From positions 1 to 34,505 of IMG/VR virus record IMGVR_UViG_3300031240_000027: DNA of 34,505 nucleotides; one strand, written 5' to 3'. Source of the stretch: a virus. The translations under genes and the position numbers were made by a program. The notes below the pieces were generated by a model that worked only from the letters and a program-made list of their open reading frames with translations, searched no databases and was not told the origin of the DNA. Positions 1,873-33,366 of the stretch are shown here, in pieces (position 1 is the first letter of the stretch; every line of letters begins with the position of its first letter).

Positions 1873-1904
1873 ATTGTACTAACAATTTTGGTCAGTCTTA
1901 TACA
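1873..1904 (-). promoter_or_regulatory. late-type promoter for prohead protease
   Basis: Minus-strand TGTATAAG (1897-1904), 18-nt spacer, TACAAT (1873-1878), then 9 nt to the ATG at 1863. The spacer holds an A-tract. It shares boxes and spacing with eight other sites in the genome. A start point 7 nt past the -10 box leaves a leader of only about 3 nt. Confidence 0.8.
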
Positions 1905-1913
1905 TTTTATGTT

Positions 1914-4028
1914 TTAACCCTCGTCACCCTCAACCACTGGTTGCAAGCTGCACTCACAGTTTGGGTGAGCTGTTGGTGAGTCGTCACCGCTGCTAAAATC
2001 ATCATCAAGCGGTATAACGCCGTCATCCTCATTGCCCAAGCATACATCACAAGCACTGTCATCTGCCAGCCATTCTTTGCCGGCAACAACGCCGGATTGT
2101 TTATACCCCTCAAGACTTCCCTGACTGTACGCATCCCCGGTCTCTGTTCTGGCCAACCGTTCTGCCCGGTAATCACTCTGGCCGTCAAAAAATGCACCAA
2201 TGCTTGCGGTTATGTCTGGGATGCTCTCACCGTTTGCCACGCCGTCTGTAACAACTTGGCCAATGTCATCTTTGAGCGTGCCACTATAACTGGTGGCGTT
2301 TTCCAATGCGTTCTTTTGCAGCCAATCAGTTGCCCGCGGGTTTTCCAAGTCAAAATCAGTGTCAACATTTACCTCTGCCAATGCAACCTTGCCAGAGTCG
2401 CCAAGCACTTTGGTCATCTGCTCTTTGCTGGCGTTATAAACCAAACCAACCCACTCATTGTAATTGGTAAACAATAACCGCACCAAGTCGCCGGCTGTCT
2501 CATCTGCTTTGTTGACCAGCCCCATACTCTTTGCCAGTTTGCTGACCGGCCCGGCTGGTTTATGCTCTTTGGTAAATACTGCCCGTGCTGCTTTTGATTG
2601 CGCGTTGGTGAGTATCAGATTTTTGAGTTGGTCATTTAACTCTTTGTATGTTTTGGTTGCAGTTTTTACTTGAGCGTCAATGTACGTTTTGCGCGCAGCA
2701 ACAGCCTCTTTTTTAACGGCATACTTGCGCTTTTTATTTATGCGTTTTTGCATAACTCTCTTTTTTAACTCACGCAATGCTTTTGGCGTTGTGGTGTCTG
2801 TGCCATCACCGGCTGGCGGGGTTGGCTCACCCATTGGTGACATGGTGTTTGGGATGTATAGTTTGTCCCCACCCTCAATTGGTAACTCACCAATCTGTGC
2901 GCGGGCTTCGTTTGGTGTCATGTAGTAATGCTCAATGGCACTTGCGCGTATGCTTATCTGTTGGTCAATGTTATCCGGCACTGGGTCTGTAAACGCAAAG
3001 CGGTACTCATACGGGTCAAGGTTAAATAGTGGCAAGTAATACTCATTGAGTTTGCTGACAAAAAATACCATTTTTGGCTTGATGACATATTTACCAAAAA
3101 CGTACTCTGTGGCTTGTGCTGCTGCAAAGTTTACGTCTTCTGTGATGCCCAAAATAACCTTTGGCACACGGAATATGGCCAAAATCTCATCACGGATTGT
3201 TTTGCGTGAGTTATCAAACTGCATCTCGCGCATTGTTGGATTTAACGGGGTAAACTTGAGGCCACCTTCCATGATTGCCATTTTGTGAGCGTTTTGCACG
3301 CCTTTGTATTTACTGTCCCAGTTGGCGCGTATTCTGCCGTACTGCTCATCTGACAATGTACCCTCTGTTGATAACAGCGCAGACGGCATTGCAGAGTTAC
3401 CAAAAAAGTTGCGTTGCCATTCGCTTGCGTATGTATCTGTGTCAATTGCCAAGCCGGCTGCCTCAACCGTACCCATACCGCGGTACTTACTCATGGGGTT
3501 AAAATGCGCCCAGTGTAAAACTTCTGACGGGGTGAGTGGGACTTTTACGCCCATCTCATTGGTATAAACATACCCGGCAATAAAATCTGCCTTGCTTTTG
3601 ATGATGTTTACGCGGGTTGGGTCAAGTGGCCATATCTCAACGGGTGGGCCTGATTTATTTTGTCCGGCGCGGGGTAAATACCAAAATGAGTTGCCGTTTA
3701 ACTCTTGATATGCAGCATAGGAATACAAAAGCTCATACAGCGTCACAAAATCATTGACGTGGTGCAGCACATCAAGTGCCGGGTGTTCGTCAATGTCTTG
3801 CCAGTCGTTTGTTTTAACATTCCACTTTTGCAGTTTTATCTCCATGTCAGCAACACGCTCTGCAATGGCGTTGGTGCAAGCAAAAACCCATCCACGGTAT
3901 GCTTTCAACGCTTCCTTTTCATTCATGCGGGGCATGTCAGTTGGGTTAAAAAACCCAAAGATGCCAGGGTTGGCTGCACCTTTGACAACGGATGCCCACA
4001 GATTTTTTATGTTTTGCAAAATTGACAT
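1914..4028 (-). CDS. portal protein fused to a MuF/SPP1 gp7-like head morphogenesis domain
   Basis: 704 residues from the ATG at 4028. Upstream in-frame codons exist, but this ATG sits 9 nt after the -10 box of a late-type promoter. Residues ~30-400 are a phage portal of the HK97/SPP1 class (RGWVFACTNAIAERVA, the crown/stem region around NPTMREMQFDNSRK, and DPVPDNIDQQISIRA). After a Lys/Arg-rich helical linker, residues ~540-704 carry a MuF-type minor head domain: ARTETGDAYSQGSLEGYKQSG, then a Cys/His pattern CDVC...HPNCECSL that probably binds a metal. Portal and MuF are usually separate neighbouring genes; here they are one polypeptide, so every portal ring would carry twelve MuF domains. 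It lies between terminase and protease, as expected for a packaging-head module. Confidence 0.9.
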   Translation of the reverse strand: MSILQNIKNLWASVVKGAANPGIFGFFNPTDMPRMNEKEALKAYRGWVFACTNAIAERVADMEIKLQKWNVKTNDWQDIDEHPALDVLHHVNDFVTLYELLYSYAAYQELNGNSFWYLPRAGQNKSGPPVEIWPLDPTRVNIIKSKADFIAGYVYTNEMGVKVPLTPSEVLHWAHFNPMSKYRGMGTVEAAGLAIDTDTYASEWQRNFFGNSAMPSALLSTEGTLSDEQYGRIRANWDSKYKGVQNAHKMAIMEGGLKFTPLNPTMREMQFDNSRKTIRDEILAIFRVPKVILGITEDVNFAAAQATEYVFGKYVIKPKMVFFVSKLNEYYLPLFNLDPYEYRFAFTDPVPDNIDQQISIRASAIEHYYMTPNEARAQIGELPIEGGDKLYIPNTMSPMGEPTPPAGDGTDTTTPKALRELKKRVMQKRINKKRKYAVKKEAVAARKTYIDAQVKTATKTYKELNDQLKNLILTNAQSKAARAVFTKEHKPAGPVSKLAKSMGLVNKADETAGDLVRLLFTNYNEWVGLVYNASKEQMTKVLGDSGKVALAEVNVDTDFDLENPRATDWLQKNALENATSYSGTLKDDIGQVVTDGVANGESIPDITASIGAFFDGQSDYRAERLARTETGDAYSQGSLEGYKQSGVVAGKEWLADDSACDVCLGNEDDGVIPLDDDFSSGDDSPTAHPNCECSLQPVVEGDEG

Positions 4029-4037
4029 ACTAACTTT

Positions 4038-4069
4038 ATTATATTGGCTTTTTTGCCTGTTCTTATACA
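4038..4069 (-). promoter_or_regulatory. late-type promoter for portal
   Basis: Minus-strand TGTATAAG (4062-4069), 18-nt spacer containing GGCAAAAAAGCC, TATAAT (4038-4043), then 9 nt to the portal ATG at 4028. It lies in the 43-nt gap after the terminase stop. No Shine-Dalgarno is visible between the -10 box and the ATG. Confidence 0.85.
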
Positions 4070-4071
4070 AT

Positions 4072-5523
4072 TTAGTCTAACCACCTCACATTTGGCTCTG
4101 GCTTCGGTTGAGTAAATGTTAGCATAAACGCATCTGCAAAATCCGGGCTTTTGCCGGTGCGGGCTTTCAAGTCTTCTTTTGGCTCACACTGCAAAACCTT
4201 GTCTGTACTGACTTTGTATTTTATCCAAGTAAGTTGTTGCCATTGCCCGTCTTTGCGCAGTTTGCCACCGGCTTTTATCCACTGCTCTGCTTTCCATGCG
4301 TTCTCTGCTTTGAGGTTTTTATACTTTGTTGGGTCAGATGCCGGGACACCAACGCTCACTGCATTGACCATATAACCCAACTCATGCAATCGGTCAGTAA
4401 CGCCACGGCCCACGCCAATATCATCAACGCTTACCGCTTCCGGCTTGATGAGTCTGTACCATTGCTTGCCGTCTGTGTCTGTGCAATTGTGATGCTCTGC
4501 TGTGCCGGCCAGTTGATACTTTTCAATAATCCTGATTGTCTCATTTACGTTGGTCATGGTGTCATTGCTGTGGTTAAATGACTCAATCCAAGAGGTCTGC
4601 CCCTGCCGGATGACATAAGTGTTAAAATCACCGCCGGCAGCAACGTCAACGCCAAGTGTCATTGGTGTTGCCTCATCCGGGTCAAACAATCCAACAAACG
4701 CGCCCTCAATGTCCTCTGTTGATAGCAATTGCCTGTAACCGCGTGAGTCAATGGCATCCTCATCTGGGAATAGACACTCATAAAATACGTCAAAAAACGC
4801 CTCATTGCGCATCTCCTCAATAAACTCTGGGGAAAAACGGCCCTCTGCCATTGCCAGTTTGTAGTCAATAAAAAGTTTGTGATATTTTGGGTCATGCCAT
4901 GTACGGTAAAAATGGTTGCGGTGAAACGGGTTGCCAATCTCAAGCAAAAATGTCTCACTGTATTTATAACCGCCAAGCATACGTTTAACTGTGGCATACA
5001 GCGGGTCATCAATCATGCTGCTCTCATCAAGTATCAGATTTTGGCCACCAAAACCCATGGCTGCCTCAATGTTGCGCTTCATGTTGCGTGAGTCAAGCGT
5101 TAGTGTTTGGATGCCACCACCGCCCAAAAAAGTAATGTGGTTGCGTGAGCGTTCACGCTTTAAACGGTCAAGAGTTGTACTGCGGTCTAACTCAAGCCGG
5201 GATGTAAAAAACTCATCATCAAACGCATGCTCAATAACTTGGCCCATGATTATCTGGGCTTTTTTTTCGCTGGGTGCAAGTATGGTAAAACGGTCATCAT
5301 CAATGGTGGCGCAAAGAAGTAATGCCCCGGCAACGGTCATTGATTTACCGTACTGTGTTGGCGCAATAACCTGATTGCGTGGGTGTTCTTTACACACAAT
5401 CATCATTGCAATCTCAAGTTGGTTGTCAGTCAGCTCAAGAGGTTTGCCGTTATTTTTTAGCAGCGTTTTTACCAGTGCGCGCAACTGGCTTTTTGTGGGC
5501 TTGTACATCTTTTTTTGGGCCAT
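4072..5523 (-). CDS. terL: terminase large subunit
   Basis: About 483 residues. The DNA-packaging motor couples ATP hydrolysis to translocation and cuts the concatemer. The ATPase domain has Walker A APTQYGKS (about residue 55) and Walker B LILDE (about residue 165). The C-terminal RNase H-like nuclease has its acidic residues in TLGVDVAAGGD, DDIGVGRGV and SPDFADAF. It overlaps the small subunit by about 74 nt, so coupled translation is likely. A GTG at 5535 and an ATG at 5508 are alternative starts; none has a clear Shine-Dalgarno, so the exact N-terminus is uncertain. The identity is not in doubt. Confidence 0.93.
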   Translation of the reverse strand: MAQKKMYKPTKSQLRALVKTLLKNNGKPLELTDNQLEIAMMIVCKEHPRNQVIAPTQYGKSMTVAGALLLCATIDDDRFTILAPSEKKAQIIMGQVIEHAFDDEFFTSRLELDRSTTLDRLKRERSRNHITFLGGGGIQTLTLDSRNMKRNIEAAMGFGGQNLILDESSMIDDPLYATVKRMLGGYKYSETFLLEIGNPFHRNHFYRTWHDPKYHKLFIDYKLAMAEGRFSPEFIEEMRNEAFFDVFYECLFPDEDAIDSRGYRQLLSTEDIEGAFVGLFDPDEATPMTLGVDVAAGGDFNTYVIRQGQTSWIESFNHSNDTMTNVNETIRIIEKYQLAGTAEHHNCTDTDGKQWYRLIKPEAVSVDDIGVGRGVTDRLHELGYMVNAVSVGVPASDPTKYKNLKAENAWKAEQWIKAGGKLRKDGQWQQLTWIKYKVSTDKVLQCEPKEDLKARTGKSPDFADAFMLTFTQPKPEPNVRWLD

Positions 5524-5974
5524 GAAGTATGGCACGCAATAGTTTTAACTTCTCTGCATCTGCGCTGTTTTCCGTGGTTTGTTTTATCTTTTGCTCTGGG
5601 GTAAATCCACTGCGGTCAAGCAAACTCTCTGCTGCTTTCCAAGAGCGTTTGGCTGCCCGGCGCAATGTCTCAAGTGCATCCGGCGCGTACTCTTTAAACT
5701 TGGTTGTGAGGTCATCATATCGCTCAATTGCCTCATGCGCCTGTGCTGTGGTTATCTCCTCATAAGCTGCTTTGCAAAAGCCGTCTTTGCTTGAGCTAAA
5801 CCAGCCCCGTACAACGCTGTAATTTACTTTGCACTCAACAGCAATCTCTTGGTAATCCGCACCATCAAGCCGGGCAATAATCGCTTGCTGGTATATCGGT
5901 TTTAACGTGTCAATAAGCCAGACGCGCTCTGGTTTGTATTCTGGCTCTGTTGGTTTTGTCTTTTTTTTTGCCAT
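5450..5974 (-). CDS. terS: terminase small subunit
   Basis: 174 residues. An N-terminal helix-turn-helix lies at about residues 35-60 (QEIAVECKVNYSVVRGWF), of the kind that recognises the packaging site. A helical oligomerisation region follows (RYDDLTTKFKEYAPDALETL), then a basic C-terminus rich in Lys that could contact DNA or the large subunit. Position directly before the large subunit and the HTH-plus-helix layout support the call. Low sequence conservation is normal for this family. The start follows the methyltransferase stop by 3 nt. Confidence 0.8.
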   Translation of the reverse strand: MAKKKTKPTEPEYKPERVWLIDTLKPIYQQAIIARLDGADYQEIAVECKVNYSVVRGWFSSSKDGFCKAAYEEITTAQAHEAIERYDDLTTKFKEYAPDALETLRRAAKRSWKAAESLLDRSGFTPEQKIKQTTENSADAEKLKLLRAILHGPKKDVQAHKKPVARTGKNAAKK

Positions 5975-5976
5975 AG

Positions 5977-6504
5977 TTATTTTTTAAATATCGCTGCGTA
6001 ACTGCCACCCTCTGATAATCTCACAACTTGCCCGCCATATTGCCACACCATGTCAGTGGCAAGCGTTTCCATGCCCTTGCAGTGAGCAAACTGCGGAAAG
6101 TAACCCGCGCCCCAGTCTTCAATGATGTACAAACCGCCGGGTGCAACAAACTGATATAAACCGTTAAATGTGCTGGCTGTTAAATCCCGCACATGGCTGC
6201 CGTCATCAATAACAATGTCAAACGGCCCGCGGTCTCTGCCAAAAGTCTCAAGACCCTGTGTGTCTGCTTGGTCAATTACAAGCATCTCAACGCCGTCAAT
6301 TGGTTTTGATTTTATCTCACGGTCAAGACCAATGATGGTTGACCCGGATGCAAAAAACTCTTTGGCCCAAAGAAGTGAGCCACCGTATAAAATGCCCATC
6401 TCAACGTACTTGACTGGCTTTGCTCTCAAGCCGGCAAACAATCGCTCATACGCCGGTATGAGACCGCTTTTGTACTTATCTGTTGGCCACTCTTTGTTTT
6501 GCAT
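5977..6504 (-). CDS. class I SAM-dependent methyltransferase (macrocin/cephalosporin-hydroxylase-like)
   Basis: 175 residues with a Rossmann methyltransferase fold. The SAM-binding motif I is at residues ~34-42 (VEMGILYGG), acidic residue Asp61 ends strand 2 (IIGLDRE), and IDDGSH at 99-104 and GGLYIIEDWG follow. This pattern is typical of the Methyltransf_24 / macrocin O-methyltransferase group, which methylates sugars and other small molecules, rather than of DNA methyltransferases (no NPPY or PC motif). It sits 2 nt after the double glycosyltransferase, so the likely substrate is a sugar added by that enzyme, on the virion or on a host surface glycan. The substrate is inferred from context only. 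Confidence 0.8.
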   Translation of the reverse strand: MQNKEWPTDKYKSGLIPAYERLFAGLRAKPVKYVEMGILYGGSLLWAKEFFASGSTIIGLDREIKSKPIDGVEMLVIDQADTQGLETFGRDRGPFDIVIDDGSHVRDLTASTFNGLYQFVAPGGLYIIEDWGAGYFPQFAHCKGMETLATDMVWQYGGQVVRLSEGGSYAAIFKK

Positions 6505-6506
6505 AG

Positions 6507-7937
6507 TTATGGTTTATCAATCCCAAGGTTTGCTGCGCATATCTCTTGCCAGTGCTTTGTGCTAATGCCGGTCATCAGCTCAAAAGCATACGCATCACCC
6601 CGGTTTATCCACCAATATGTGCCATACTGATTGTGAAAGTTTTGGCTGCTCTTGCTGCCCAAGTGGAATACTGACGCATCCGGGCAAAACACACTCTTTT
6701 TTTGCAACTTCTCAACTTTCCAAGTAAGCCAGTAATCGTTAAACCACATCACCAAGTCTCTGGGTATGGGGAATAGTGCAGCAACCGCTTTACGGCTCAT
6801 CATGTAGCATGTACCGCGTATGTCAATGTTGCCGGCTCGCTCTGCTTTGCCGTATGGTTGTGAGCATCCGGGGTCAGTCTGGTATGGGTTGGCAATAAAT
6901 ACACCGGGATTGTCCAACTCATTCATTAGCACCACATCCCAGTTTTTACTAAACGTGATGTCATTATTGATAACTGCAACGTAATCGCCGGTGGCATGAG
7001 CAACGCCAAAGTTCCAAGCGTAAGTACACATGCGGTTTGGGGTCAATGTAAACTTTTTGACGTTGGGGTGTGTAATCTCTTGCATCAATTGTGGGATTGC
7101 CGGGTCAGTGCTGCCGTTATCAACCAAAATCAACTCAACCTCATGGTAAGTGTTGGCGTATAAGCTCTCAATGGTCATCAAGGTCTCTTTGGGGCAATTG
7201 TAAATTGGCATGACCACTGACAGTTTGCCTTGGTTTACCCGGACAACTTTGCCCTGCTGCAAACTCTCAAGATGCCATTGCTCAAACCTGTGCCGTCTTT
7301 GGTTGTAAACATCATTGTCATGTCTCATATTATCGCGCTGCGCAACGGTGTACGTTTCGTCTTTGACCGCTTCGCCATTGCACCAGTGGTGGTGATGTAT
7401 CAGCGCATCACTCATGGCAAACGCGCCACGCTTCATTGCGGTTTGCTCTGTCTCAATGTCTGTATTGTAGTGATTGTACGCGCTTGAGTAAATTACATCT
7501 GGCTCATCCTCAACGCCACTGTGGGTTTGGATATAAGACCGGCGCACCAATAAATGACTGCCATGTTTGCCGGTTTTGCTTATTGGCCAATTATCAATGT
7601 GGCCCACAATGCCAATCTTGGGGTTTTCCATGACTTTGAGCATGTCTGTGTCCCAGCCCTTTGTAAACTCAACGTCATCCGCTGCAAGCATCAAAAATGG
7701 CTCTGCGGTTTTGTGGTAGCAATTGTTGATGGTCGGGCCGTACTTTGACGGTGTGGCGTTTATGACCATGTTGGCGTTTAACGCTTTGCATGCTGCCTTT
7801 GTGGCAATGTCATCCGGGTCAACACCAAAATAAACAGCGTATGGCTCTGTTGTGGTCTTCTCAATGTTATCAAGAAGTTTGGCCACTCGCTCTGGTCTGC
7901 CCCGTGTTGGTATGATTATCGCTATTTTGTTTGTCAT
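6507..7937 (-). CDS. tandem GT-A glycosyltransferase (family 2-like, two domains)
   Basis: 476 residues with two nucleotide-sugar-binding GT-A domains. The first (residues 1-~215) opens with IIIPTRGRPERV, has the acidic pair in LAADDVEF (~85-91), and a His cluster HHHHWC at 181-186 that may bind a metal. The second (residues ~238-476) is a canonical GT2: SVVMPIYNCPKET, LVDNGSTD, and NND at ~324-326. Such enzymes transfer sugars from nucleotide donors to glycans or proteins. No membrane segment is seen, so it should be cytoplasmic. It heads a cassette with the methyltransferase and appears to have its own late-type promoter (7946-7977). It probably decorates virion proteins or remodels host surface polysaccharide. 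Confidence 0.85.
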   Translation of the reverse strand: MTNKIAIIIPTRGRPERVAKLLDNIEKTTTEPYAVYFGVDPDDIATKAACKALNANMVINATPSKYGPTINNCYHKTAEPFLMLAADDVEFTKGWDTDMLKVMENPKIGIVGHIDNWPISKTGKHGSHLLVRRSYIQTHSGVEDEPDVIYSSAYNHYNTDIETEQTAMKRGAFAMSDALIHHHHWCNGEAVKDETYTVAQRDNMRHDNDVYNQRRHRFEQWHLESLQQGKVVRVNQGKLSVVMPIYNCPKETLMTIESLYANTYHEVELILVDNGSTDPAIPQLMQEITHPNVKKFTLTPNRMCTYAWNFGVAHATGDYVAVINNDITFSKNWDVVLMNELDNPGVFIANPYQTDPGCSQPYGKAERAGNIDIRGTCYMMSRKAVAALFPIPRDLVMWFNDYWLTWKVEKLQKKSVFCPDASVFHLGSKSSQNFHNQYGTYWWINRGDAYAFELMTGISTKHWQEICAANLGIDKP

Positions 7938-8133
7938 CTGCTTTTATTGTACTCTCAAAAATCGTGCCACTTATATCTTTTTGCTCAAAGATGGTTGCCC
8001 GGACACAATCGGCAACCACTATGCAATTGTCGCACTCACCGGCACACCGCTTTGCGTAGTCTTTGACTTGGTTGTGATGCCGGCTGCGTTCCCAGTGAGA
8101 CCCTTTGTTTGAGTAGTGCAGCCGTTCACTCAT
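7870..8133 (-). CDS. small Cys-rich hypothetical protein
   Basis: 87 residues, function unknown. The middle holds four cysteines (CAGECDNCIVVADC, about residues 30-43) preceded by a His-containing basic stretch (SHWERSRHHNQ), which suggests metal binding. The start follows the stop of the preceding gene by 2 nt. The last ~20 codons overlap the glycosyltransferase start and contain that gene's candidate promoter, so the C-terminal tail, rich in Thr, Gly and Ser, may be under little constraint. The long overlap lowers confidence that the whole frame is used. Confidence 0.55.
   Translation of the reverse strand: MSERLHYSNKGSHWERSRHHNQVKDYAKRCAGECDNCIVVADCVRATIFEQKDISGTIFESTIKADDKQNSDNHTNTGQTRASGQTS
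7946..7977 (-). promoter_or_regulatory. variant late-type promoter for the double glycosyltransferase
   Basis: Minus-strand GATATAAG (7970-7977), exactly 18 nt, TACAAT (7946-7951), then 8 nt to the ATG at 7937. The -35 hexamer TATAAG and the spacing match the other late sites, but the two bases before it (GA rather than TG) do not. It lies inside the 3' end of the preceding small gene. Confidence 0.55.
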
Positions 8134-8135
8134 AG

Positions 8136-8315
8136 TCAGTTACTTTTTAAATACATTGTCTGCAAGCTCTCTGCCAATCGCATTGCGTTGTCGTTTTTGA
8201 GTTTGAGTGTGTGTACTACATCATCAACTTTAAACTCAATCACCAACTCGCCATCAACACGTTGCAAAAAGATGCCATCCACTTCCGTTTTTTCGGTGTT
8301 TTCGTTATCAGCCAT
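8136..8315 (-). CDS. small acidic hypothetical protein
   Basis: 59 residues from the ATG at 8315, chosen because GAGGTGAT lies 5-6 nt upstream. A short acidic N-terminus (ADNENTEKTEVDG) is followed by a beta-rich core (FLQRVDGELVIEFKVDDVVHTL) and a short helix. No known domain is recognised. It overlaps the end of the preceding membrane-protein gene by 8 nt. Confidence 0.65.
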   Translation of the reverse strand: MADNENTEKTEVDGIFLQRVDGELVIEFKVDDVVHTLKLKNDNAMRLAESLQTMYLKSN

Positions 8316-8538
8316 TTTTATCACCTCGCTTTTTAACCAGCCAATTGAGTGCTTTGACCACTGGTATAAACATCAAGACCAGCGCGTTGTAAGCCACCAA
8401 CTCGCCAATTACCGCAAGAATACCGCGCACTCCCCCACTCTCCCCCACTTCCGGGGTCTCCCCTCTTTTGAGGCTGGCTGGCTCTGTTTTGGCCCTGCCC
8501 GGTAGGGTAGGGGACTGCTTGTTTTTATGCGTGTTCAT
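8308..8538 (-). CDS. small single-pass membrane protein
   Basis: 76 residues from the ATG at 8538. A polar N-terminus rich in Pro, Gly, Lys and Glu is followed by one or two hydrophobic segments (about residues 38-65, with GELVAYNALVLMFIPVV) and a basic C-terminal end (KKRGDKNG), which predicts a cytoplasmic C-terminus. It overlaps the end of the SEC-C gene by 14 nt. Position in the middle block argues against a classical holin, but a role at the membrane is likely. Not recognised. Confidence 0.6.
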   Translation of the reverse strand: MNTHKNKQSPTLPGRAKTEPASLKRGETPEVGESGGVRGILAVIGELVAYNALVLMFIPVVKALNWLVKKRGDKNG

Positions 8539-8827
8539 GCCTATAACCTTGCTCACCCACTGATGCAACCTTGGCTTGTCTGACTTTTGACTGCTTGGAT
8601 GGTTTTATCTGCCCCAGTACCATACGGCACTGACCGCAAAATACTACCTGCCCGCCTTTGACAATCAAAATGCGCCTCTTGCTCTCTGGGTGCGCACAAG
8701 TGCCATCCGGGTTGTAACCCTCATCTTTTAGCTTGCAACAGTTTTTGTATTTTTTAAAACTGCCACATGGGCATGGTCTGTTGACCAATGCGCCTTTGCC
8801 ATTATTGCGTGCTTTTTTGCTGCTCAT
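8525..8827 (-). CDS. SEC-C zinc-binding motif protein
   Basis: 100 residues. Residues ~17-31 contain the SEC-C signature PCPCGSFKKYKNCC (Cys19, Cys21, Cys30, Cys31), the zinc motif first known from the SecA C-terminus and found in many small phage and bacterial proteins. A second cluster further on (Cys44 and His46 in CAHPESKRR, then VVFCGQC) could form another zinc site. The C-terminus is basic. The start overlaps the preceding stop as ATGA. The SEC-C motif is clear; the partner or function is not known. Confidence 0.75.
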   Translation of the reverse strand: MSSKKARNNGKGALVNRPCPCGSFKKYKNCCKLKDEGYNPDGTCAHPESKRRILIVKGGQVVFCGQCRMVLGQIKPSKQSKVRQAKVASVGEQGYRHEHA

Positions 8828-9063
8828 TTTTTTAACTCTCCTCTCAACACTTGGATTGCAACACCCAAAGCGTCAACAACATTTTGCCACCTGTCCAATG
8901 TCTTCTTGTCATTGGCAGATTTAAAAACGTACTCATCTGCGCTTGGCGGTGTCATCTCAAAATGGTCTGCCGTAACCGTGAGCTTTACTTTGACTGCGCC
9001 ACTAACAACAATCATTGTCTTTTTTGTTGTGATGACTGTGTAATCTTTTTTGACTTTTACCAT
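8824..9063 (-). CDS. small hypothetical protein
   Basis: 79 residues from the ATG at 9063, which has GAGGGGGTGA 5-6 nt upstream; longer in-frame starts are therefore unlikely. The N-terminal half is strongly beta (KDYTVITTKKTMIVVSGAVKVKLTVTAD) and the C-terminal half helical (KKTLDRWQNVVDALGVAIQVLRGELKK). This resembles a compact beta-sheet plus helix domain, but no family is recognised. Confidence 0.7.
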   Translation of the reverse strand: MVKVKKDYTVITTKKTMIVVSGAVKVKLTVTADHFEMTPPSADEYVFKSANDKKTLDRWQNVVDALGVAIQVLRGELKK

Positions 9064-9076
9064 AATGCTCACCCCC

Positions 9077-9301: not shown

Positions 9302-9306
9302 ATTTT

Positions 9307-9734: not shown

Positions 9735-9839
9735 ATAGTTTTAAATCACAAAAATGGCCCAAAGCAACAAAATTGCTGTGAGCCAATAATCAATAATAAG
9801 TGTTGCACCAACTTGCGCAGATGTCAAGTGTTTATACGC

Positions 9840-9859: not shown

Positions 9860-9876
9860 CATCAGTATCATAGCAC

Positions 9877-9900: not shown

Positions 9901-9925
9901 CTTCTTGGATTATCAGCCCTTGCTT

Positions 9926-25698: not shown

Positions 25699-26646
25699 TT
25701 AGTACGCTGTTACTAGGTTGGTGAGCGTAACACCCAGTAATTTACCAGTTGACGTGTCGTAAATCCCGTTAAACTCAATCTCAAGTAAATTGTGCTGGTC
25801 AGTAATCTTTGTGGTTGCTGTGGTGTACACAGCTTTTGGAATAACTACATCAAGCACATACGCTGCTGCGCTTCCAATCGCTGCGCCGGTTGCAATCAAC
25901 TCAATTGCCTCTGTGGTTTTAGCAAGATAGTTTGTGAGTCTGGCAAGTGCTGTGGCATCCAAGTACATGCTGATTTTGCCACTGACTTCTGACCCGCCGG
26001 ATATACCAGCAAAACTTGGGTCATTGCTGCCAAGGGCATAAACCATCTCTGCGCCGTTTTTATAATCCAAGTCAATGCTCTCAACTTCACCAACAATTGA
26101 CCCGCCAATTTTAACTTGAAGCTGCGCAAAGTTAAATGCTGGGATTGTGGAAAATGCCGGGGTGATTGCGGTTGCGGGTGCTTGTCCCTTGGCAATTACT
26201 GATGCAATAACCTCAAGCATCTCACCAGTCTTGCCGGATAGTTTTAACTCTTTGACAATTGAGCCGGCAAACCGTCTGACGTTTTCGCTTTGGGCTTGCT
26301 CAATAGTAAATGATTGCTTTGGTGATGTCTCTGTAAAAACGTGGTCATACACAATGGTCTCACCAGCGTGTACTGCTGGGGTATCTGTACCAAGGGCTGA
26401 CAATAAGAAGTGGCCCAGATAATCCTCAAAAGCGTCAAAAGTCAACTCACCCTCATACGCAGACTTGCCCAAAATTGCATCATAATTTTTTTGCAATTGG
26501 CCTTTGATGGCCGGTATCATCTGCACATTTTTTTTGGCATCAATACCGCCGGTTGCCCGTACTGGCATTGATTTATCTGGCACAACTGGTGTGCCAAAAG
26601 TTACCTCTTTTTTAAAACTGATGACTGATTGTATTCCTGCGCTCAT
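25699..26646 (-). CDS. major tail tube protein
   Basis: 315 residues. N-terminal SVISFKKEVTFGTPVVPDKS is the typical opening of phage tail tube proteins of the tail_tube_2 type. A beta-rich tube domain follows (FTIEQAQSENVRRFAGSIVKELKLSG, split by a turn, then FNFAQLQVKIGGSIVGEVESIDLDYKN) with the C-terminal strands HNLLEIEFNGIYD. Hexamers stack around the tape measure. Size and position support the call. Confidence 0.82.
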   Translation of the reverse strand: MSAGIQSVISFKKEVTFGTPVVPDKSMPVRATGGIDAKKNVQMIPAIKGQLQKNYDAILGKSAYEGELTFDAFEDYLGHFLLSALGTDTPAVHAGETIVYDHVFTETSPKQSFTIEQAQSENVRRFAGSIVKELKLSGKTGEMLEVIASVIAKGQAPATAITPAFSTIPAFNFAQLQVKIGGSIVGEVESIDLDYKNGAEMVYALGSNDPSFAGISGGSEVSGKISMYLDATALARLTNYLAKTTEAIELIATGAAIGSAAAYVLDVVIPKAVYTTATTKITDQHNLLEIEFNGIYDTSTGKLLGVTLTNLVTAY

Positions 26647-26652: not shown

Positions 26653-26877
26653 TTAGTCTTCTTGTTTAACTTTTTTTTTCGTTCCTGTTTTGTCTTCAAC
26701 ATGCTCTGTTTGCTCTGGTACTGTTGTTGTGTCAACATCCGGCGTGCCATCTGTTGTCACCTGCACAAAGTCTGTGTGATTTATAGGCGTTTGTGTCTCT
26801 ATAATATCACCCGGCATAACTGTCTTGCCCACCTCTGGGATGTGTACTTCACTTGTGCCAAGATATTTATACCTCAT
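26653..26877 (-). CDS. small SH3-like tail/neck accessory protein
   Basis: 74 residues. N-terminal beta unit (MRYKYLGTSEVHIPEVGKTV, then PGDIIETQTPINHTDFVQV) resembles small SH3-like phage domains. The C-terminal half is acidic with a Lys-rich end. A very similar-sized protein is encoded at 33370-33594 after the capsid gene, and both may be small accessory or decoration factors. It starts directly at the end of a late-type promoter. Confidence 0.55.
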   Translation of the reverse strand: MRYKYLGTSEVHIPEVGKTVMPGDIIETQTPINHTDFVQVTTDGTPDVDTTTVPEQTEHVEDKTGTKKKVKQED

Positions 26878-26883
26878 GTCTCA

Positions 26884-26915
26884 ATTATATTAGTAATTTT
26901 GCCCCAGCTTATACA
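26884..26915 (-). promoter_or_regulatory. late-type promoter for small protein and tail tube
   Basis: Minus-strand TGTATAAG (26908-26915), 18-nt spacer with CAAAATTAC, TATAAT (26884-26889), then 6 nt to the ATG at 26877. It is placed just upstream of the major tail tube operon. Confidence 0.85.
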
Positions 26916-26927
26916 TTTTTAAAAAAG

Positions 26928-27365
26928 CTATACCAAGTCACCCGTATCTCTGCGCAGATGCACAGTTGCGCGGGTGGTCATTTCGTACACTCTCACCGGG
27001 GTCTCTTTGACACCATCACGCCAGACACCCGTTGCCGGCGCAGCATACTCACAAGTGCCGTTGAGTGTTACGTTTGACCTGATTGCCTGTTTTATATCGT
27101 CAACACAAGCCTCAAGTACATCCTCATAATCTGCGTCATTTTTTTCGTCAACCCGGAAGTAAACCCGGATGTTGTGTTTGATAACCACCAAGTTTGTGCC
27201 GGATGCGCCAATGCTGCTAAACTCCTCATCATCACTGTTTGCGCTGACGCATGCAGCCGGGAAGTTTGCCAGTGCTTTTGCCTCTTTGCCATAGACAATT
27301 TTGAGGCTTGGTACAGTCTCAAGTATTGTCACAATTGCATCTTTTATTGCTTTATATCCTGTCAT
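26928..27365 (-). CDS. tail terminator / tail completion protein
   Basis: 145 residues, alpha/beta. The N-terminal helix and strands (GYKAIKDAIVTILETVPSLKIVYGKEA, broken by a turn, then FPAACVSANSDDEEF) and the strand pattern VIKHNIRVYFRVDEKND recall tail terminator (Tt/gpU-like) proteins. Order after gp10-like and before the tube supports it. Overlaps the preceding gene by 4 nt. Confidence 0.65.
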   Translation of the reverse strand: MTGYKAIKDAIVTILETVPSLKIVYGKEAKALANFPAACVSANSDDEEFSSIGASGTNLVVIKHNIRVYFRVDEKNDADYEDVLEACVDDIKQAIRSNVTLNGTCEYAAPATGVWRDGVKETPVRVYEMTTRATVHLRRDTGDLV

Positions 27366-27853
27366 AAGTTAGTTGGCGTTGTCGCCAGATTATCAAGTAT
27401 AGTTTTGATTGCTGCCGTCATGTAATTGGTAAAAAATGGCACAACTGTCTCTTTGGCTTTTTTCATGTAGTATTTACCAGCCATGGCCGGTATATTGGCA
27501 AACGTGCCAAAAATCTGCCCGGTCTTTTTATTGGCCAGTACGCGCTTGCTGACCACAGCCACCTGATGTGCGCGTGTGCCACCCTCTTGGTATTTTGCAT
27601 ACTCAAGGTTTGTGCCAACATGGGCCTCAATGTTTGTGAGTGTAACCGTTGCCGGCTGCGCATGTATTGACCTCTGCAATGTCCCGGTCTGATGTGGCAC
27701 AAACTCTTTGGCCAATGCCTCTGTTTTGATTGCAGCTTTGTTGACCGCACCCAAAATGGCTTTTGTAGCCACGGACTGCGTGTTTGCAATTGCAGCTTTT
27801 AACTCTGCTGCGCCAATTAGGTCAACTGACAATTGATAGTTTTCGTCTGCCAT
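27362..27853 (-). CDS. HK97 gp10-like neck / tail completion protein
   Basis: 163 residues from the ATG at 27853 (AGGTGGT about 6 nt upstream, 2 nt after the preceding stop). Typical HK97 gp10 features: VDLIGAAELKAAIAN start, AAIKTEALAKEFVPHQTGTLQRSI, then HVGTNLEYAKYQEGGTRAHQV. It joins the tail to the head-tail connector. Confidence 0.8.
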   Translation of the reverse strand: MADENYQLSVDLIGAAELKAAIANTQSVATKAILGAVNKAAIKTEALAKEFVPHQTGTLQRSIHAQPATVTLTNIEAHVGTNLEYAKYQEGGTRAHQVAVVSKRVLANKKTGQIFGTFANIPAMAGKYYMKKAKETVVPFFTNYMTAAIKTILDNLATTPTNL

Positions 27854-27855
27854 AT

Positions 27856-28179
27856 TTATACCACCTGCTTTACTAAACAACGGATGTATTGCATGTACTG
27901 GTTATTGACCACAAACGGCATACCGTCAATCAGATACTCTTGATTATTGCTGGTTTTGATTTTATCGCCATTGTGCAATGAGAGCGTTACATCCATAAAA
28001 AATGCCTCAAAGACTTGGAAGCTCGGCACGTCACCAAAGCCGGTTGCAATGTCTGTGCCGGTGGGTGAGATTGACACGTTGACGTTTTGGTACACCGGGT
28101 CAACACTGTACCCCTCTTTGTCCCCGCTGCGTTGGAATTGGTAAATGACGCATGTATCTGTTATTGGTAATTTTGCCAT
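27856..28179 (-). CDS. head closure / stopper protein
   Basis: 107 residues, mostly beta (TCVIYQFQRSGDKEGYSV, VNVSISPTGTDIATGFGDVPSF, DVTLSLHNGDKIKTSNNQEYL). Position between connector (gp6-like) and gp10-like is that of the head closure protein Hc1 in HK97-type phages. Confidence 0.65.
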   Translation of the reverse strand: MAKLPITDTCVIYQFQRSGDKEGYSVDPVYQNVNVSISPTGTDIATGFGDVPSFQVFEAFFMDVTLSLHNGDKIKTSNNQEYLIDGMPFVVNNQYMQYIRCLVKQVV

Positions 28180-28183
28180 ATTT

Positions 28184-28852
28184 TTAAAACCTGTCTATTG
28201 CTGCCAACCTGTATTGGTCAAGCGCAAGTTTAACAAAATCCGGCATGCCACCAACTTTGTCTGTGGTAAATTGCACCTGCACCGTGCCGGTCTGTACTCT
28301 GTTTGGGTCTTTGTTGGCATCCCCGGAAGTTTGGATTTTGCGGGCAATCCACTCAATGACAGCCTGTTTAACAAGCGGTGGTACATTGCCGGCTGCATCA
28401 GATTTATATTTTATCTCAACGGCTTTAAACCCAAGCGGGTTTGGCAGCATGATGGTCATGGGCCTCAACCACAATTTAACGTGGGTGTCATAACTGTAAA
28501 CATACCGCATGTCCCATGGCACGCCACCAACGGTTACGCTGACAATCCCTTTGGCCAGCGGTGCAGTTGGGTCTGCCGGGTCTTGCGCAATCTTTGGTTG
28601 TTTAACAAAAAATGTGTCATTGGCATACGGCGCGGTCTCTGCTGCAACTGCATCAAAATACTCTGTGATAATGCCGTCACCATCTTGCTCTGTGGTCTGC
28701 CAAGACCTGTTGCAATACTGGTCAACCGCATCCATGATGGCCGGCAAAAGTAACGCAAACTGGTTTGCGCCATTCTCGGTCAACGTAACGCCCAAGTAAG
28801 CCTCAAGCTCACTCTGCTCTGCGTACATGTATGGTGTTGGTGTGTCGCTCAT
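28184..28852 (-). CDS. head-tail connector (gp6-like adaptor)
   Basis: 222 residues. EQSELEAYLGVTLTENGANQF and LLPAIMDAVDQYCNRSW match the N-terminal helices of phage gp6-like connectors; AVEIKYKSDAAGNVPPLVKQAVIEWIARK, broken by a turn, is the usual C-terminal helical part. Forms the 12-fold ring under the portal. It is the first gene after a late-type promoter. Confidence 0.78.
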   Translation of the reverse strand: MSDTPTPYMYAEQSELEAYLGVTLTENGANQFALLLPAIMDAVDQYCNRSWQTTEQDGDGIITEYFDAVAAETAPYANDTFFVKQPKIAQDPADPTAPLAKGIVSVTVGGVPWDMRYVYSYDTHVKLWLRPMTIMLPNPLGFKAVEIKYKSDAAGNVPPLVKQAVIEWIARKIQTSGDANKDPNRVQTGTVQVQFTTDKVGGMPDFVKLALDQYRLAAIDRF

Positions 28853-28857
28853 ATAGT

Positions 28858-31788
28858 TTAATTATAACTGTCACCGGGCCTCTTGTTATACAATTTGCCG
28901 GAATACACAAAAAGCTCACCAGTCAACTCTGCCATCAATCTTTGGCCTTGGATGTACAACGGCCCGCGCTTTCGGAATAAGCCCCATGCACGCTTGATAT
29001 GCGCGCACCCGTGTTGACGCTTCCAAGTAAAACCATTGACGCGTGTTTGCCCATAAATAAGCCGGTCAACCAAAACTGCCAGTGAGCTTTTAGCAAAGAT
29101 ATTTACCAAGTTTGTAATCTCAATGCGCGCTGTCCCGGTCAATTGCCTCACTGCCATTGCAGTTACCCGTGCCACTGCGTTTATTGGTTGAGCAACAGAT
29201 TGCATTATGCGTGAGACACCCGGAATAGTTTGCGCAACGGTTACTGCTATGCGCGCCACCCCGGTAATTACTCTGGTCACAATTTTCAATATCCGGGCAA
29301 CACCAACAATGTTACGGATGACAACGCTGGTGATGCGTGTGACCGCAGTGAGTGTTTGACTGGTTATAAGTTGGATGCGCGCAATAGCCGGCTGCGCTCT
29401 GGTAGTAATCAAAGCAATGCGGGTTATCCCGGTGAGAGTTTTAGCCGTAACCAAGCCAATGCGCGTGATGCCGGCAATTGTTTTGCTGGTAACAAGTTGG
29501 ATGCGGGCCAAGGCTGCTTGTGTCCGGGTGGTTATCAAACCAATACGCGCCACACCTGTGATAGTTTTGGTCACTGTTTTGAGTATTCGGGCAAGACCTG
29601 TCTGCGTATGCTGCGCAGTTGCCAGTATTCTGGCCCACGCAGTCTGCGCTCTTTGTGTGATTGCAGTTACTCTTGCCGTGCCTGTAATTGTTTTGAGTGT
29701 GCTTGCTGTGACCCGTGTGATGCCCTGTACGGTCTGATTTATCACTTTTAGTATTCGGGTAATTGCTGTCTGTGTCCGGGTGGTTGAGGCTGTGATGCGC
29801 GTTATAGCCGTGATTGTGCGTAAAACAGAGACCGTCAAACGCGCTAGGCCGGTTGTTGTCCTCAAAACTGATACAAGTACCCGGCTTTTTGCTGATTGTG
29901 TCTGCAAGGTGCTAATGGTAACGCGGGCCACTGCGGTAACTGTCCGGGTGACAGCGTTTGTTATTTTGGTAATTGCACTCTGGGTCTGCCCCACCACTTT
30001 TGTTATCCGGGCAAGTGCGGTTTGTGCTTGTGAGGTTGTTTTTAAAATGCTGGCTTTGGCTGCTTGAGTTCTGGTTGTGGTTATTCCAATGCGCGCAAGT
30101 GCAGTCTGCGCTCTTTGTGTGACCGCGGTGATGCGTGCCAATGCAGTCTGGGCTTGGGTCGTAACTTTAGTGATGCGGGTTACACCAGTAACAGTGCGCA
30201 GCGTTGAGGTAGTTATCCGGGTGACAGCGGTGACTGTTTGTGCCACAACTTTTAGTATTCTGGCAATTGCAGTTTGAGTTTTGGTTGTGGTTACACCACT
30301 TGCAGCAATGTTGGCAACACCGGCAATAGTTTTGAGTGTATTATTTTTTATGTTTGCCAATGCAGTCTGCGCTCTTTGTGTCAGCGCAGTCATTCTTGAT
30401 TTACCCGGTTGCGTTTTCGCTGTGGTCAATTGTATGCGGGATTTACCGGGCTGGGTTTTGTTTACTGCTTTTTGTATTCTGGTTTTGGCAGTTTGCAATT
30501 GTTTGGTCAGAGCGTTTATAAACGCTTTGCCGGTCTGGGTTTGCTGTGTTTGTGGGGTTGCTGGGTAAATGTTGACCATACCAACTGTACCGTTTGAGCC
30601 ATTGCCACCCATATCTGCGTTACCACCGCCAGCCCCCAAAAGCGCGCCAACTGACCCTATACCGCCAGTACCACCGCCCCATGAGCCACCAGTGCCACCC
30701 ACGCCATCAACCCCCGGTGTGCCACCGTTTGCTTTATTCCCTGCGCCACCACCACCACCCGGCCCGCTGTTGTTATAAGCGGTCAGATAGCCGTTACCGC
30801 CAGAGTATTTTATATCTCCTGTCCCGTTTGTTGCCAAACCACCGTAACTCTGTGTGGTAATATGGCCACCATCCCCACCTTTTGCCACCATAACATCAGA
30901 TGTGCCATTGTTAAACTTTGAGTCACCACCGGCTGTGCCACCATTGCCCCCGGATGTTGCCCCAGTACCGGCTGTGCCAACCGTTACTGTGTACCCAGTG
31001 CTGCCGGCAATAGTTATTGCGTATTTTGCAGAGTACGCACCACCACCACCGCCACATGAGTTTTGCCCGGTATTCGGGTTTGGGCCACCACCACCACCGG
31101 CCCAGCCCTCAACATCAATCAAAGTTAAACCAGATGGTGATGTCCAAGTGCCGGTTGTTTTTATTGTCGCCGGAAAAACCATTGACGCAGTTACAAACTC
31201 AACCCATCCGGGTTGTGTGGTTACGGAAGTTGAGCCATCTGTTAAATCGGTTGCGCCTTGGTTGCCATAATTGATTGTGCCGGTTTTTGAGGTTGCTGAT
31301 GAGCCGGTTTTTTCGTAACCAATCTCAACCACAATCCTATCACCCACCATTGCATTGACTGTGCCGGCCAGTGCCATTGCGCCATATCCTTTGCCGGTTG
31401 CTGTGGTTGGCCATTCGTTTGCACCAAGATAATCATTTAAAAGTGTACCGCGGTTGGTGTCAGCATCCCCGGAAGTTACATAAACATGTATATGTAAATG
31501 AAAAGACGCAGCGGAAGCCTCAAGACAACCCAAAACCCAGTTGATTGTATCGGATGCGGTAAACTGGTAATTGGTATGCAGTGGGTCAGAGACAAAACGG
31601 GCCAGCAAGACGTTATACGGGTTTGTGGCCACCGCTTCTGCCACAGCTTTGGTGGCTGCTGCACCAAGCGGAAAATTACCCAAACGCATATCAACAAAGC
31701 CAGTGGTTGTCTGCCAGTTCCCTTTGAGGGTCGCCGGTGAGTATGGGGCTGCGTTATTGTTTAAATAAAATCTCTTTGTGACTGCCAT
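28858..31788 (-). CDS. large repeat-containing adhesin-like structural protein
   Basis: 976 residues. Residues ~1-210 are a beta-rich head (LYLNN and FHLHIHVYVTSG motifs, then EIGYEKTG). Residues ~215-400 are strongly glycine-rich (GGGGG blocks, TAGTGATSGGNGGTAGG), like tail-fibre tip or adhesin domains. Residues ~416-893 are 34 units of a 14-residue repeat of the form [R/K/Q]-T-x-T-[G/A]-x-[A/T]-R-I-x-x-x-T-x (for example RTQAALARIQLVTS, KTITGVARIGLITT). The C-terminal ~83 residues are basic and aromatic. It sits between the capsid and the connector, which is an unusual place for a fibre, so it might be a head fibre or a tail-neck fibre. Exact function is not known. Confidence 0.7.
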   Translation of the reverse strand: MAVTKRFYLNNNAAPYSPATLKGNWQTTTGFVDMRLGNFPLGAAATKAVAEAVATNPYNVLLARFVSDPLHTNYQFTASDTINWVLGCLEASAASFHLHIHVYVTSGDADTNRGTLLNDYLGANEWPTTATGKGYGAMALAGTVNAMVGDRIVVEIGYEKTGSSATSKTGTINYGNQGATDLTDGSTSVTTQPGWVEFVTASMVFPATIKTTGTWTSPSGLTLIDVEGWAGGGGGPNPNTGQNSCGGGGGAYSAKYAITIAGSTGYTVTVGTAGTGATSGGNGGTAGGDSKFNNGTSDVMVAKGGDGGHITTQSYGGLATNGTGDIKYSGGNGYLTAYNNSGPGGGGGAGNKANGGTPGVDGVGGTGGSWGGGTGGIGSVGALLGAGGGNADMGGNGSNGTVGMVNIYPATPQTQQTQTGKAFINALTKQLQTAKTRIQKAVNKTQPGKSRIQLTTAKTQPGKSRMTALTQRAQTALANIKNNTLKTIAGVANIAASGVTTTKTQTAIARILKVVAQTVTAVTRITTSTLRTVTGVTRITKVTTQAQTALARITAVTQRAQTALARIGITTTRTQAAKASILKTTSQAQTALARITKVVGQTQSAITKITNAVTRTVTAVARVTISTLQTQSAKSRVLVSVLRTTTGLARLTVSVLRTITAITRITASTTRTQTAITRILKVINQTVQGITRVTASTLKTITGTARVTAITQRAQTAWARILATAQHTQTGLARILKTVTKTITGVARIGLITTRTQAALARIQLVTSKTIAGITRIGLVTAKTLTGITRIALITTRAQPAIARIQLITSQTLTAVTRITSVVIRNIVGVARILKIVTRVITGVARIAVTVAQTIPGVSRIMQSVAQPINAVARVTAMAVRQLTGTARIEITNLVNIFAKSSLAVLVDRLIYGQTRVNGFTWKRQHGCAHIKRAWGLFRKRGPLYIQGQRLMAELTGELFVYSGKLYNKRPGDSYN
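28861..28892 (-). promoter_or_regulatory. late-type promoter for head-tail connector
   Basis: Minus-strand TGTATAAC (28885-28892), 18-nt spacer, TATAAT (28861-28866), then 8 nt to the ATG at 28852. It lies inside the last codons of the repeat protein gene, so the two must be read together. Confidence 0.8.
29110..30543 (-). repeat. 42-bp (14-residue) tandem repeat block, 34 units
   Basis: Within the 976-residue gene. Aligned on the conserved R-I pair (for example TALARI, TGVARI, TAITRI), the units have a strict 14-residue period except one insertion of two residues after the sixth unit. The repeat is degenerate at the DNA level, which argues for old duplication with selection on the protein pattern. 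Alternating hydrophobic and polar residues suggest a beta-solenoid or an extended fibre shaft. Confidence 0.85.
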
Positions 31789-31789
31789 A

Positions 31790-32410
31790 TTAGTGTATTG
31801 TTACTACCTGCTGGTAATTTTTACCCGCAACGGTGCATTGCCAACCCAAACAATAAAGTGTTGGGTAGGCTGCAACGTATGGCAGTACATACACTTTTGA
31901 GATTTTTTGTTTTATGCCATCAAGCCACCCAAAACTGTCCTCTGTCCACATTTTATCAACATTCTCAAACGTCACTTTTTGACCTGCGCGGTTGGTAATT
32001 ATCCACTTTTTACCACCAACGTGGTCAACTTTTAGTGGGTTGTTAAATAACGCCGGGCTGGTATGGCTCTCATAGCGTGTGCGGAAGTATATCAATTTAA
32101 ACTTTGGCGGTAATGTTGGCAGTGGGTGGTCATCCTGTACGCCAAACTGCACACCGTTATGCTCAAAATGCCCGTCTTTTAAATCAACTGACCATTTATT
32201 GTCAGCCAATAAGCCTTGCTCAATCAGCACAAACTTATCAATTGCCAATTTATCAATGCCCTCTTGGATGTCTGACGTACAAGATTTACCCTGTGGCTCA
32301 CCTTTGTCATTGACTGTGTGTGGGGTATAAATGGAAGTATCTGCGCGGTTTTGTTTATAAACCACGCCTGTGTTAAATGTTGCCTCAAAAAGATATTTTA
32401 GTTTTAACAT
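31790..32410 (-). CDS. hypothetical head-region protein
   Basis: 206 residues, alpha/beta, rich in aromatic residues (KLKYLFEATFNTGVVYKQN; FEHNGVQFGVQDDHPL; GWLDGIKQKISKVYVLPYV). It lies 1 nt before the repeat protein and follows a short gap that holds two GCAATACAATGC copies. No family is recognised; a minor head or decoration protein fits the place. Confidence 0.6.
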   Translation of the reverse strand: MLKLKYLFEATFNTGVVYKQNRADTSIYTPHTVNDKGEPQGKSCTSDIQEGIDKLAIDKFVLIEQGLLADNKWSVDLKDGHFEHNGVQFGVQDDHPLPTLPPKFKLIYFRTRYESHTSPALFNNPLKVDHVGGKKWIITNRAGQKVTFENVDKMWTEDSFGWLDGIKQKISKVYVLPYVAAYPTLYCLGWQCTVAGKNYQQVVTIH

Positions 32411-32411
32411 A

Positions 32412-32441
32412 GCATTGTATTGCTGGGGCGCATTGTATTGC
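32412..32441. repeat. 12-bp direct repeat with TACAAT cores
   Basis: GCATTGTATTGC occurs at 32412-32423 and 32430-32441 (period 18), in the gap just upstream of the ATG at 32410. On the coding strand each copy contains TACAAT, a -10-like hexamer, but no TGTATAAG or TTGACA lies at the right distance. It could be a minor promoter or a protein-binding site. Confidence 0.45.
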
Positions 32442-32454
32442 GCAGATTATGATT

Positions 32455-32775
32455 TTATTCTGCTGGCGTTTCGCCCTCGGCTGCCGGGGTCGCATCAACT
32501 GGTGCTGTGTCCGGCTCTGCTTCACCATTCATTATGTCGTCAAGTAATGTTGCTGACTTCTCAACTGATACCTGACCAATGTTTGCCTCTTTGTGAGCTA
32601 CAAAATACGCTCTGGCCTCATCAGCGGTCATGTCTGCCGGAAGTTTGACAAACCTGCCACAATCCGGGGTTGTGCAAGTAAAGACCAGCTCACCATTGAG
32701 GTCAACTTCCCCAGTATGGGGTGTCTCTGCTTGGCAGTTTGCGCAAAAGATTATGATTGTTTTTTGTTTAGTCAT
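32455..32775 (-). CDS. zinc-ribbon-like small protein
   Basis: 106 residues from the ATG at 32775, just after the stop of the previous gene (the spacing stop then AAAATATG is common in this genome); an in-frame ATG at 32790 would overlap that stop. N-terminal CANCQAE and CTTPDCGRF give four cysteines of a zinc ribbon; the helix MTADEARAYFVAHKEANI follows, then an acidic Ala/Pro/Glu-rich tail. A capsid-accessory or scaffold-interaction role is only a guess. Confidence 0.6.
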   Translation of the reverse strand: MTKQKTIIIFCANCQAETPHTGEVDLNGELVFTCTTPDCGRFVKLPADMTADEARAYFVAHKEANIGQVSVEKSATLLDDIMNGEAEPDTAPVDATPAAEGETPAE

Positions 32776-32779
32776 ATTT

Positions 32780-33328
32780 TTAGTTTTCATTATATTGCAA
32801 CGTCAGTGTTTGGCTGGGTGTGTCCCCGGCTGCTGCACTGGCAGTTGTCTGTAATTGCGTTGTAAGCCAATTGGTATAGCAAGGGTTTGAGGTCATTGTG
32901 GCTGCGTGTGATGCAATCTCTGGGCTTGTTGGTGTAAACCAAACTGCTACCCCAGAGCCAATTGCAACCGCTGTGGTCATGTCTGTGGTCAATCCGGCAT
33001 CTGCGCCGGTTGACGGTGTAACGTATGAGTATGGGCCAGCAGCCGTTGAGCAAGCCGGTACACCTTTGAGCGTCATGTTTGTGAGTGTCCCTGCTGTATG
33101 AGCAAAAAGCCCTGCACTTATCTGGTTAAATGAGCCACTAAAATGACCAAACTGATTTTTTTGATATGAGTTATTGCCCGCTGTTATGGGGCTTGAGCTG
33201 TATGCCGTGGTGCTATCGTCAATGTTTTTCCAATTGCACTCTGTACGCGCAGCAGTACGGGTTGTCCCCTTTGTGGGGCTTCCCGTTTGTGCGCCGTTGT
33301 CTTCTTCAAACTCAAAAGTTGCTGCCAT
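32780..33328 (-). CDS. hypothetical structural (decoration-like) protein
   Basis: 182 residues, Ser/Thr/Asn/Gly/Ala-rich, beta-rich, no membrane segment or signal (FEFEEDNGAQTGSPTKGTTR; VAVWFTPTSPEIASHAATMT). The composition is that of a virion decoration or minor capsid protein. It follows one of the nine late-type promoters directly and so is a strong, first-of-operon late gene. No family is recognised. Confidence 0.6.
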   Translation of the reverse strand: MAATFEFEEDNGAQTGSPTKGTTRTAARTECNWKNIDDSTTAYSSSPITAGNNSYQKNQFGHFSGSFNQISAGLFAHTAGTLTNMTLKGVPACSTAAGPYSYVTPSTGADAGLTTDMTTAVAIGSGVAVWFTPTSPEIASHAATMTSNPCYTNWLTTQLQTTASAAAGDTPSQTLTLQYNEN

Positions 33329-33334
33329 AGTTTT

Positions 33335-33366
33335 ATTATATTAGCTTTTTTGCACTGACTTATACA
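33335..33366 (-). promoter_or_regulatory. late-type promoter for decoration-like gene
   Basis: Minus-strand TGTATAAG (33359-33366), 18-nt spacer with GCAAAAAAGC, TATAAT (33335-33340), then 6 nt to the ATG at 33328. One of the best matches to the consensus. Confidence 0.88.

Follow-up and report, generated by a model that had tools for sequence, protein, structure and literature searches.

Known systems of promoter retargeting and the phage window

The middle promoters of phage T4 are activated by sigma appropriation, which is carried out by the phage proteins AsiA and MotA (PMC2988021, PMC6755090), and the MotA box of these promoters is centred at -30, 12 ± 1 base pairs (bp) from the -10 element (PMC2988021). 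Here we describe nine candidate late promoters in the virus record IMGVR_UViG_3300031240_000027 (34,505 nucleotides (nt); this whole stretch is hereafter called the window), at which, with a probability that we put at about 80%, a phage module resembling sigma region 4 (sigma4) and a small partner protein retarget the -35 contact of the host RNA polymerase. At the sequence level the likeness to MotA/AsiA is that the host -10 is kept, that a phage box with one or more phage proteins replaces the -35 contact, and that two small phage proteins take part. The geometry differs: the box in the window lies at about -42 to -31 with its TATAAS part 18 bp from the -10, and the spacing is not the 12 ± 1 bp of MotA, being 18 bp in 78 of the 84 copies spaced by 10-26 bp. 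MotA uses a double-wing DNA-binding domain and AsiA remodels sigma4, whereas the proposed reader here is itself sigma4-like, and the genes concerned are middle genes in T4 but structural genes in the window.

The late regulators Ltr, RinA and ArpU of phages of Gram-positive bacteria bind four imperfect repeats that lie ahead of the core promoter (in phi13, from -107 to -42) and produce a single late transcript (PMC13123087). The window resembles Ltr and RinA systems in gene position, but it has one short box of about 12 bp at -35 that recurs before many units, and no RinA or ArpU model was among the NCBIfam matches listed for the proteins studied here. The closest precedent for sigma4 as a protein of its own is SigO: as in SigO-RsoA, the sigma4-like domain is a separate small protein accompanied by a second one. 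Unlike this system, in which RsoA supplies sigma2, the window combines a host-type -10 with a partner for which no significant fold match was found. Xpf, the positive control sigma-like factor of PBSX, is a sigma-like phage late activator. One homologue of the window factor (L191) shows weak similarity to Xpf (PRK06930 in NCBIfam; 5.5e-05, 22.9 bits against a cut-off of 136).

Candidate late promoters in the window and its relatives

We detected the motif TGTATAA(G/C)-N18-TANAAT at eight sites of the window and a GATATAAG variant at a ninth; all nine sites listed in the preliminary description are present, on the minus (coding) strand and with 18 nt between the boxes. In dinucleotide shuffles of the window, TGTATAA matches occur at a mean of 0.02 (maximum 1). 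Nine TATAA-to-TANAAT pairs have a spacing of 18, with zero or one for every other value between 12 and 25, and an unbiased scan, in which all 6-mers were tried at all fixed distances from a downstream TANAAT, ranked TGTATA first (P ~6e-19), on the late strand only. At 9/9 sites an ATG begins 6-9 nt past the -10, which suggests that the transcripts are leaderless or nearly so. The TATAAG that had been proposed as the -35 hexamer is present, but it is only part of a longer conserved box, AAWWTRTATAAS, that spans about -42 to -31. In an alignment of 54 family sites this box appears as a single element of about 12 bp without visible dyad, and there is little information upstream of it, to about -65. 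The central A-tract of the spacer had likewise been included in the description of the promoters; it occurs commonly in the window, yet across the 54 family sites the centre of the spacer is almost uninformative, so we regard the tract as incidental and rule it out as a feature of the family.

The site at 33335-33366 (TGTATAAG-N18-TATAAT) places the ATG of the gene at 32780-33328 at the predicted +1 and has an ortholog promoter in the relatives G003 and G012; the label "decoration" given to this gene is unsupported, as the gene has no family match. The sites at 28861-28892 (TGTATAAC-N18-TATAAT) and 26884-26915 (TGTATAAG-N18-TATAAT) precede the head-tail connector gene (28184-28852) and an open reading frame (ORF) of 74 amino acids (aa) followed by a phrog_290 tail gene (25699-26646), respectively. 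Further along the same strand lie the sites before the tape measure gene (site 25103-25134, TGTATAAG-N18-TACAAT; gene 23105-25096), the tail fibre gene (site 20922-20953, TGTATAAC-N18-TAAAAT; gene 20058-20915) and the gene at 17051-18160 (site 18167-18198, TGTATAAG-N18-TATAAT), a putative endolysin by its earlier label and without PHROGs match. The variant at 7946-7977 (GATATAAG-N18-TACAAT, position weight matrix score 19.5) precedes a glycosyltransferase gene (6507-7937) that has no ortholog among the relatives compared. The last two sites precede the portal gene (site 4038-4069, TGTATAAG-N18-TATAAT; gene 1914-4028 with its ATG at 4028, minus strand, phrog_2662 at 5e-122), which belongs to the proposed late regulon, and the capsid protease gene (site 1873-1904, TGTATAAG-N18-TACAAT; gene 646-1863).

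Relatives were gathered from IMG/VR by a motif scan and then with profiles of the large terminase (4072-5535 in the window, minus strand; the basis of the tree of relatives) and of the tail-tube protein; a portal-based search of viral contigs found no relatives, and, of the named phages in the GenBank phage set, the closest reach a portal identity of only ~28%. Proteins of the relatives are ~30-75% identical to those of the window, and their GC content ranges from 37 to 59%. We found 78 distinct motif copies at 18 bp in 23 related sequences, compared with 6 at all remaining spacings between 10 and 26 taken together. All 78 are on the late-gene strand, with one strand only in each record, and the predicted +1 is a purine in 70 of them, with an ATG usually 0-7 nt later; near-leaderless mRNAs are therefore predicted for these promoters. 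Outside the searched motif, conservation extends to AAWW and TR ahead of TATAA and, weakly, to TCA ahead of the -10.

The preliminary description had named as a refutation that related phages keep the genes without the motif, and the opposite was found. Orthologous genes retain the promoter at the connector (8/8, in G013 with RGATAA), the 74-aa ORF (7/7), the fibre (6/6) and the portal (6/6, including G013), and the motif is missing, with one exception, at the control starts of 12 other genes. It also lies just upstream of the protease gene in G006, G007, G010 and L152, and as RGATAA in G013; as the N-terminus of the protease is not alignable, these copies were placed by reading coordinates. 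When relatives lacking the factor described below were searched de novo for a -35 element, several gave nothing and G016 gave TTGACA at 17 bp.

The proposed sigma4-like factor, its partner and the -35 box

The window had been described as that of a phage without recognisable sigma factor. This no longer holds, as a 71-aa stand-alone sigma-region-4-like protein, the proposed late -35 specificity factor, is encoded at 9519-9734 (minus strand), and the presence of this factor and its helix type track the motif. Its homologues in relatives have ~95-110 residues and are mostly encoded upstream of the terminase genes. The model of the homologue from L140 has a confident helical core at about residues 41-94 (predicted local distance difference test score, pLDDT, near 90) and is predicted to fold as a helical sigma4 domain whose recognition helix is long. 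Nearly all of the best 50 rows returned for this model by VIA-align are sigma region-4 domains, among them 8x6g_H (Z 10.0, root-mean-square deviation 2.2 over 70 residues) and 3vfz_A (Z 9.9, 1.8 over 61).

Close to the factor gene in most relatives is a gene for a small partner of 63-77 aa with conserved NLVYLF, W and LxEY (9077-9301 in the window, minus strand; 74 aa, three helices). It directly follows the factor in G006, G007, G010, G012, G013 and a Shapirobacteria prophage; a single 71-aa gene separates the two in the window, and in G011 no partner was found after the factor. Factor and partner are fused in one ORF in L183, L188, L191, L192 and L226, which points to joint action. The partner model consists of three helices (pLDDT 87), and a fold search gave no significant PDB match, with weak homeodomain-like rows only. 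By eye, the stretch that separates the factor cassette from the terminase genes in G010 and G012 (L133:2873-4409; L157) contains ParB-like and DNA cytosine methyltransferase-like genes.

A QA(V/I)HQ-type factor is found together with the TRTATAA motif in 15/15 loci, and the motif is found in 0/20 loci without that factor, a count that covers terminase relatives with at least 3 kb of sequence upstream of the terminase (Fisher 3e-10, which overstates independence because the rows are related). Two further sequences, L198 and L209, have the motif and end before the expected position of the factor. About five changes of the trait fall on the terminase tree. G013 (L136) is the clearest example: it forms a pair with the TATAA phage L140 (support 100/99), has a recognition helix, KRLQICRMRKRI, different from the TATAA type, and carries RGATAAC-N18-TANAAT promoters before its connector, 74-aa ORF, fibre and portal orthologs. 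A third helix type (KLSKIYKIK) is found in the L183 group, in which the factor is fused to the partner and the -35 regions are A-rich with CCATANAAT. The recognition helix of Escherichia coli sigma70 is RERIRQI, with E585, R588 and Q589; the residues aligned to these three are Q, H and Q in most TATAA-type factors, L, C and R in G013, and S, Y and K in the L183 group.

Proposed mechanism, alternatives and likely host

The claim that a host-type -10 is kept while the -35 contact is retargeted in a coherent late regulon gains support from the conservation at orthologs, the rigid spacing, the start purine and the lack of enrichment in likely host genomes. From the motif, spacing, conservation, predicted sigma4-like fold, co-occurrence, co-variation and partner fusions computed here, we infer the following course of late transcription. 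The early sigma70-type promoter TTGACA-N18-TATACT (16231-16260, minus strand) matches the consensus at 11/12 positions, is the sole strong sigma70-like match in 7000-17200 and would open the early operon, to be read from 16260 presumably down to the factor gene. The ATG of the first early gene (15997-16224, minus strand; a 75-aa HTH_17 protein of excisionase/MerR type) begins 6 nt past its -10, so that this transcript is predicted to be leaderless too. The factor (9519-9734) would then bind DNA in the -35 role, reading AAWWTRTATAAS at about -42 to -31, while region 2 of the host housekeeping sigma factor would recognise the -10 (TANAAT); the partner (9077-9301) would probably help the factor to hold RNA polymerase or to push host sigma4 aside, and the late units would be opened as near-leaderless mRNAs. 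The -35 register and the co-variation of helix and box suggest that the factor may bind the beta flap and read the -35 element. A short box, not visibly palindromic and rigidly spaced from the -10, is as expected for a single sigma4-like domain on RNA polymerase. Given this model, replacement of host sigma4 is its preferred form, somewhat more likely than not. We hold more tentatively, at somewhat less than even odds, that the two-protein module, sometimes fused, may be a clip-on sigma region 4 of Patescibacteria phages that displaces host region 4 and installs a private, exchangeable -35 code, with regulon and recognition helix switching together (TRTATAAS, RGATAACCG and the A-rich type).

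Several points weigh against the retargeting model. The window factor lacks the N-terminal ~40 aa of most relatives; on well-supported branches there are only two strictly independent co-switches, both in the expected direction; loci without the factor are also mostly more distant; and the A-rich third -35 type is ill-defined. The early promoter is 18-bp spaced as well, so spacing alone cannot separate the two classes, and the activity of the nine putative promoters is itself predicted. Finally, the Pfam and NCBIfam matches of individual factors mostly fall short of the curated cut-offs and are not confined to sigma4, LuxR/GerE being among them: for Sigma70_r4_2 only L127 is over the cut-off (26.2 against 25.7), and the GerE cut-off is passed by three members.

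This last point bears on the main rival, a class II activator of LuxR/GerE type or derived from sigma4, which would sit as monomer or dimer on the -35 region and touch a host sigma4 or alpha left in place. GerE is among the best Pfam matches (32 bits in L133, cut-off 23.5), and several LuxR regulators rank high by sequence and in Foldseek. As the sequence families also return LuxR/GerE, the choice between sigma4 and GerE rests on the fold ranking and the box position. Both speak for sigma4, with structural rows nearly all of sigma region 4 and a box of ~12 bp without obvious dyad that is in the -35 register, not around -41.5, at a nearly invariant spacing; we consider the activator unlikely on balance. 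It is quite improbable that specificity comes from another phage protein and that the sigma4-like gene is just a companion of the motif, since the type of recognition helix and the -35 change together. The candidates would be the HTH_17 protein, the terminase small subunit (5450-5974), which has a weak Sigma70_r4_2 match (5.6e-05), or the partner alone, whose gene is also conserved with the cassette. The small subunit already serves in packaging, and its place is set by the terminase module; the HTH_17 gene is first in the early operon, with no clear homologue found in the motif phages compared.

The normal TANAAT and the sigma70-like spacing would also fit ordinary promoters of an alternative host sigma factor. 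In five genomes of the Candidate Phyla Radiation (CPR), used as proxies for the host of the window phage, the motif TGTATAA-N18-20 is not enriched, however (8 against 10 control matches), and it follows the phage factor; on these proxy hosts we rejected a host sigma factor as the cause, and rate it very improbable. Hardly credible is a role of the sites in packaging, replication or repression instead of as promoters, as all 78 copies lie on the late-gene strand, are followed by a -10 box, a start purine and an ATG at set distance, and head gene units rather than cluster in one control region.

Some further features of the window were recorded. A 976-aa protein with internal repeats and a weak tail-fibre match is encoded at 28858-31788, and several of its parts align with relatives. 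A Shine-Dalgarno-like sequence is missing from most window genes; in a few (14145-14170, 15271-15300, 16877-16900 and 33594-33620), the ATG is preceded at 8-13 nt by a GGGGGTGA or GGCGGTGA tract. No tRNAs were found in the window. The proteins of an 8.6-kb record, L066 (IMGVR_UViG_3300031250_000028), match those of the window at 100% identity over 26653-34505 and over the end of 646-1863, which shows that the two ends of the window are continuous in that record.

The phages probably infect Patescibacteria. In a collection of 84,980 species genomes one factor homologue was found. It lies on a contig of Candidatus Shapirobacteria, next to whose phage genes are tRNA genes and a glycosyltransferase gene with relatives in the same bacterial order, and a profile search of 380 Patescibacteria genomes returned only this Shapirobacteria prophage. 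On the G009 contig C189 (L165:16063-16629 and 1-15723), prophage-like genes adjoin a tRNA-Phe/Gly/Val/Leu cluster and host genes, and the phage part reaches the contig end. In three genomes of the Shapirobacteria order (L168-L182), TANAAT peaks 5-6 nt before the ATG, with which leaderless starts would fit; this suggests that leaderless transcripts are common in CPR genomes of this order. The five proxy genomes, also of this order, contain 67 TTGACA-N16-18-TANAAT matches compared with 13 reversed-control matches, a clearer result than that of a pooled -35 search near the ATG in host genomes, and the RpoD recognition helix is the canonical RERIRQI in two of the five.

Late promoters of CPR phages were not described in the open-access literature that we searched, which is not proof of absence. 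If the model is true, it would give a first view of the control of late transcription and of the use of near-leaderless mRNAs in the barely studied phages of Patescibacteria. It would also mean that -35 specificity has been changed regulon-wide in nature more than once, and the matched minimal pairs of sigma4 reader and promoter could then inform the recognition code between sigma4 and DNA and provide small orthogonal promoter systems.

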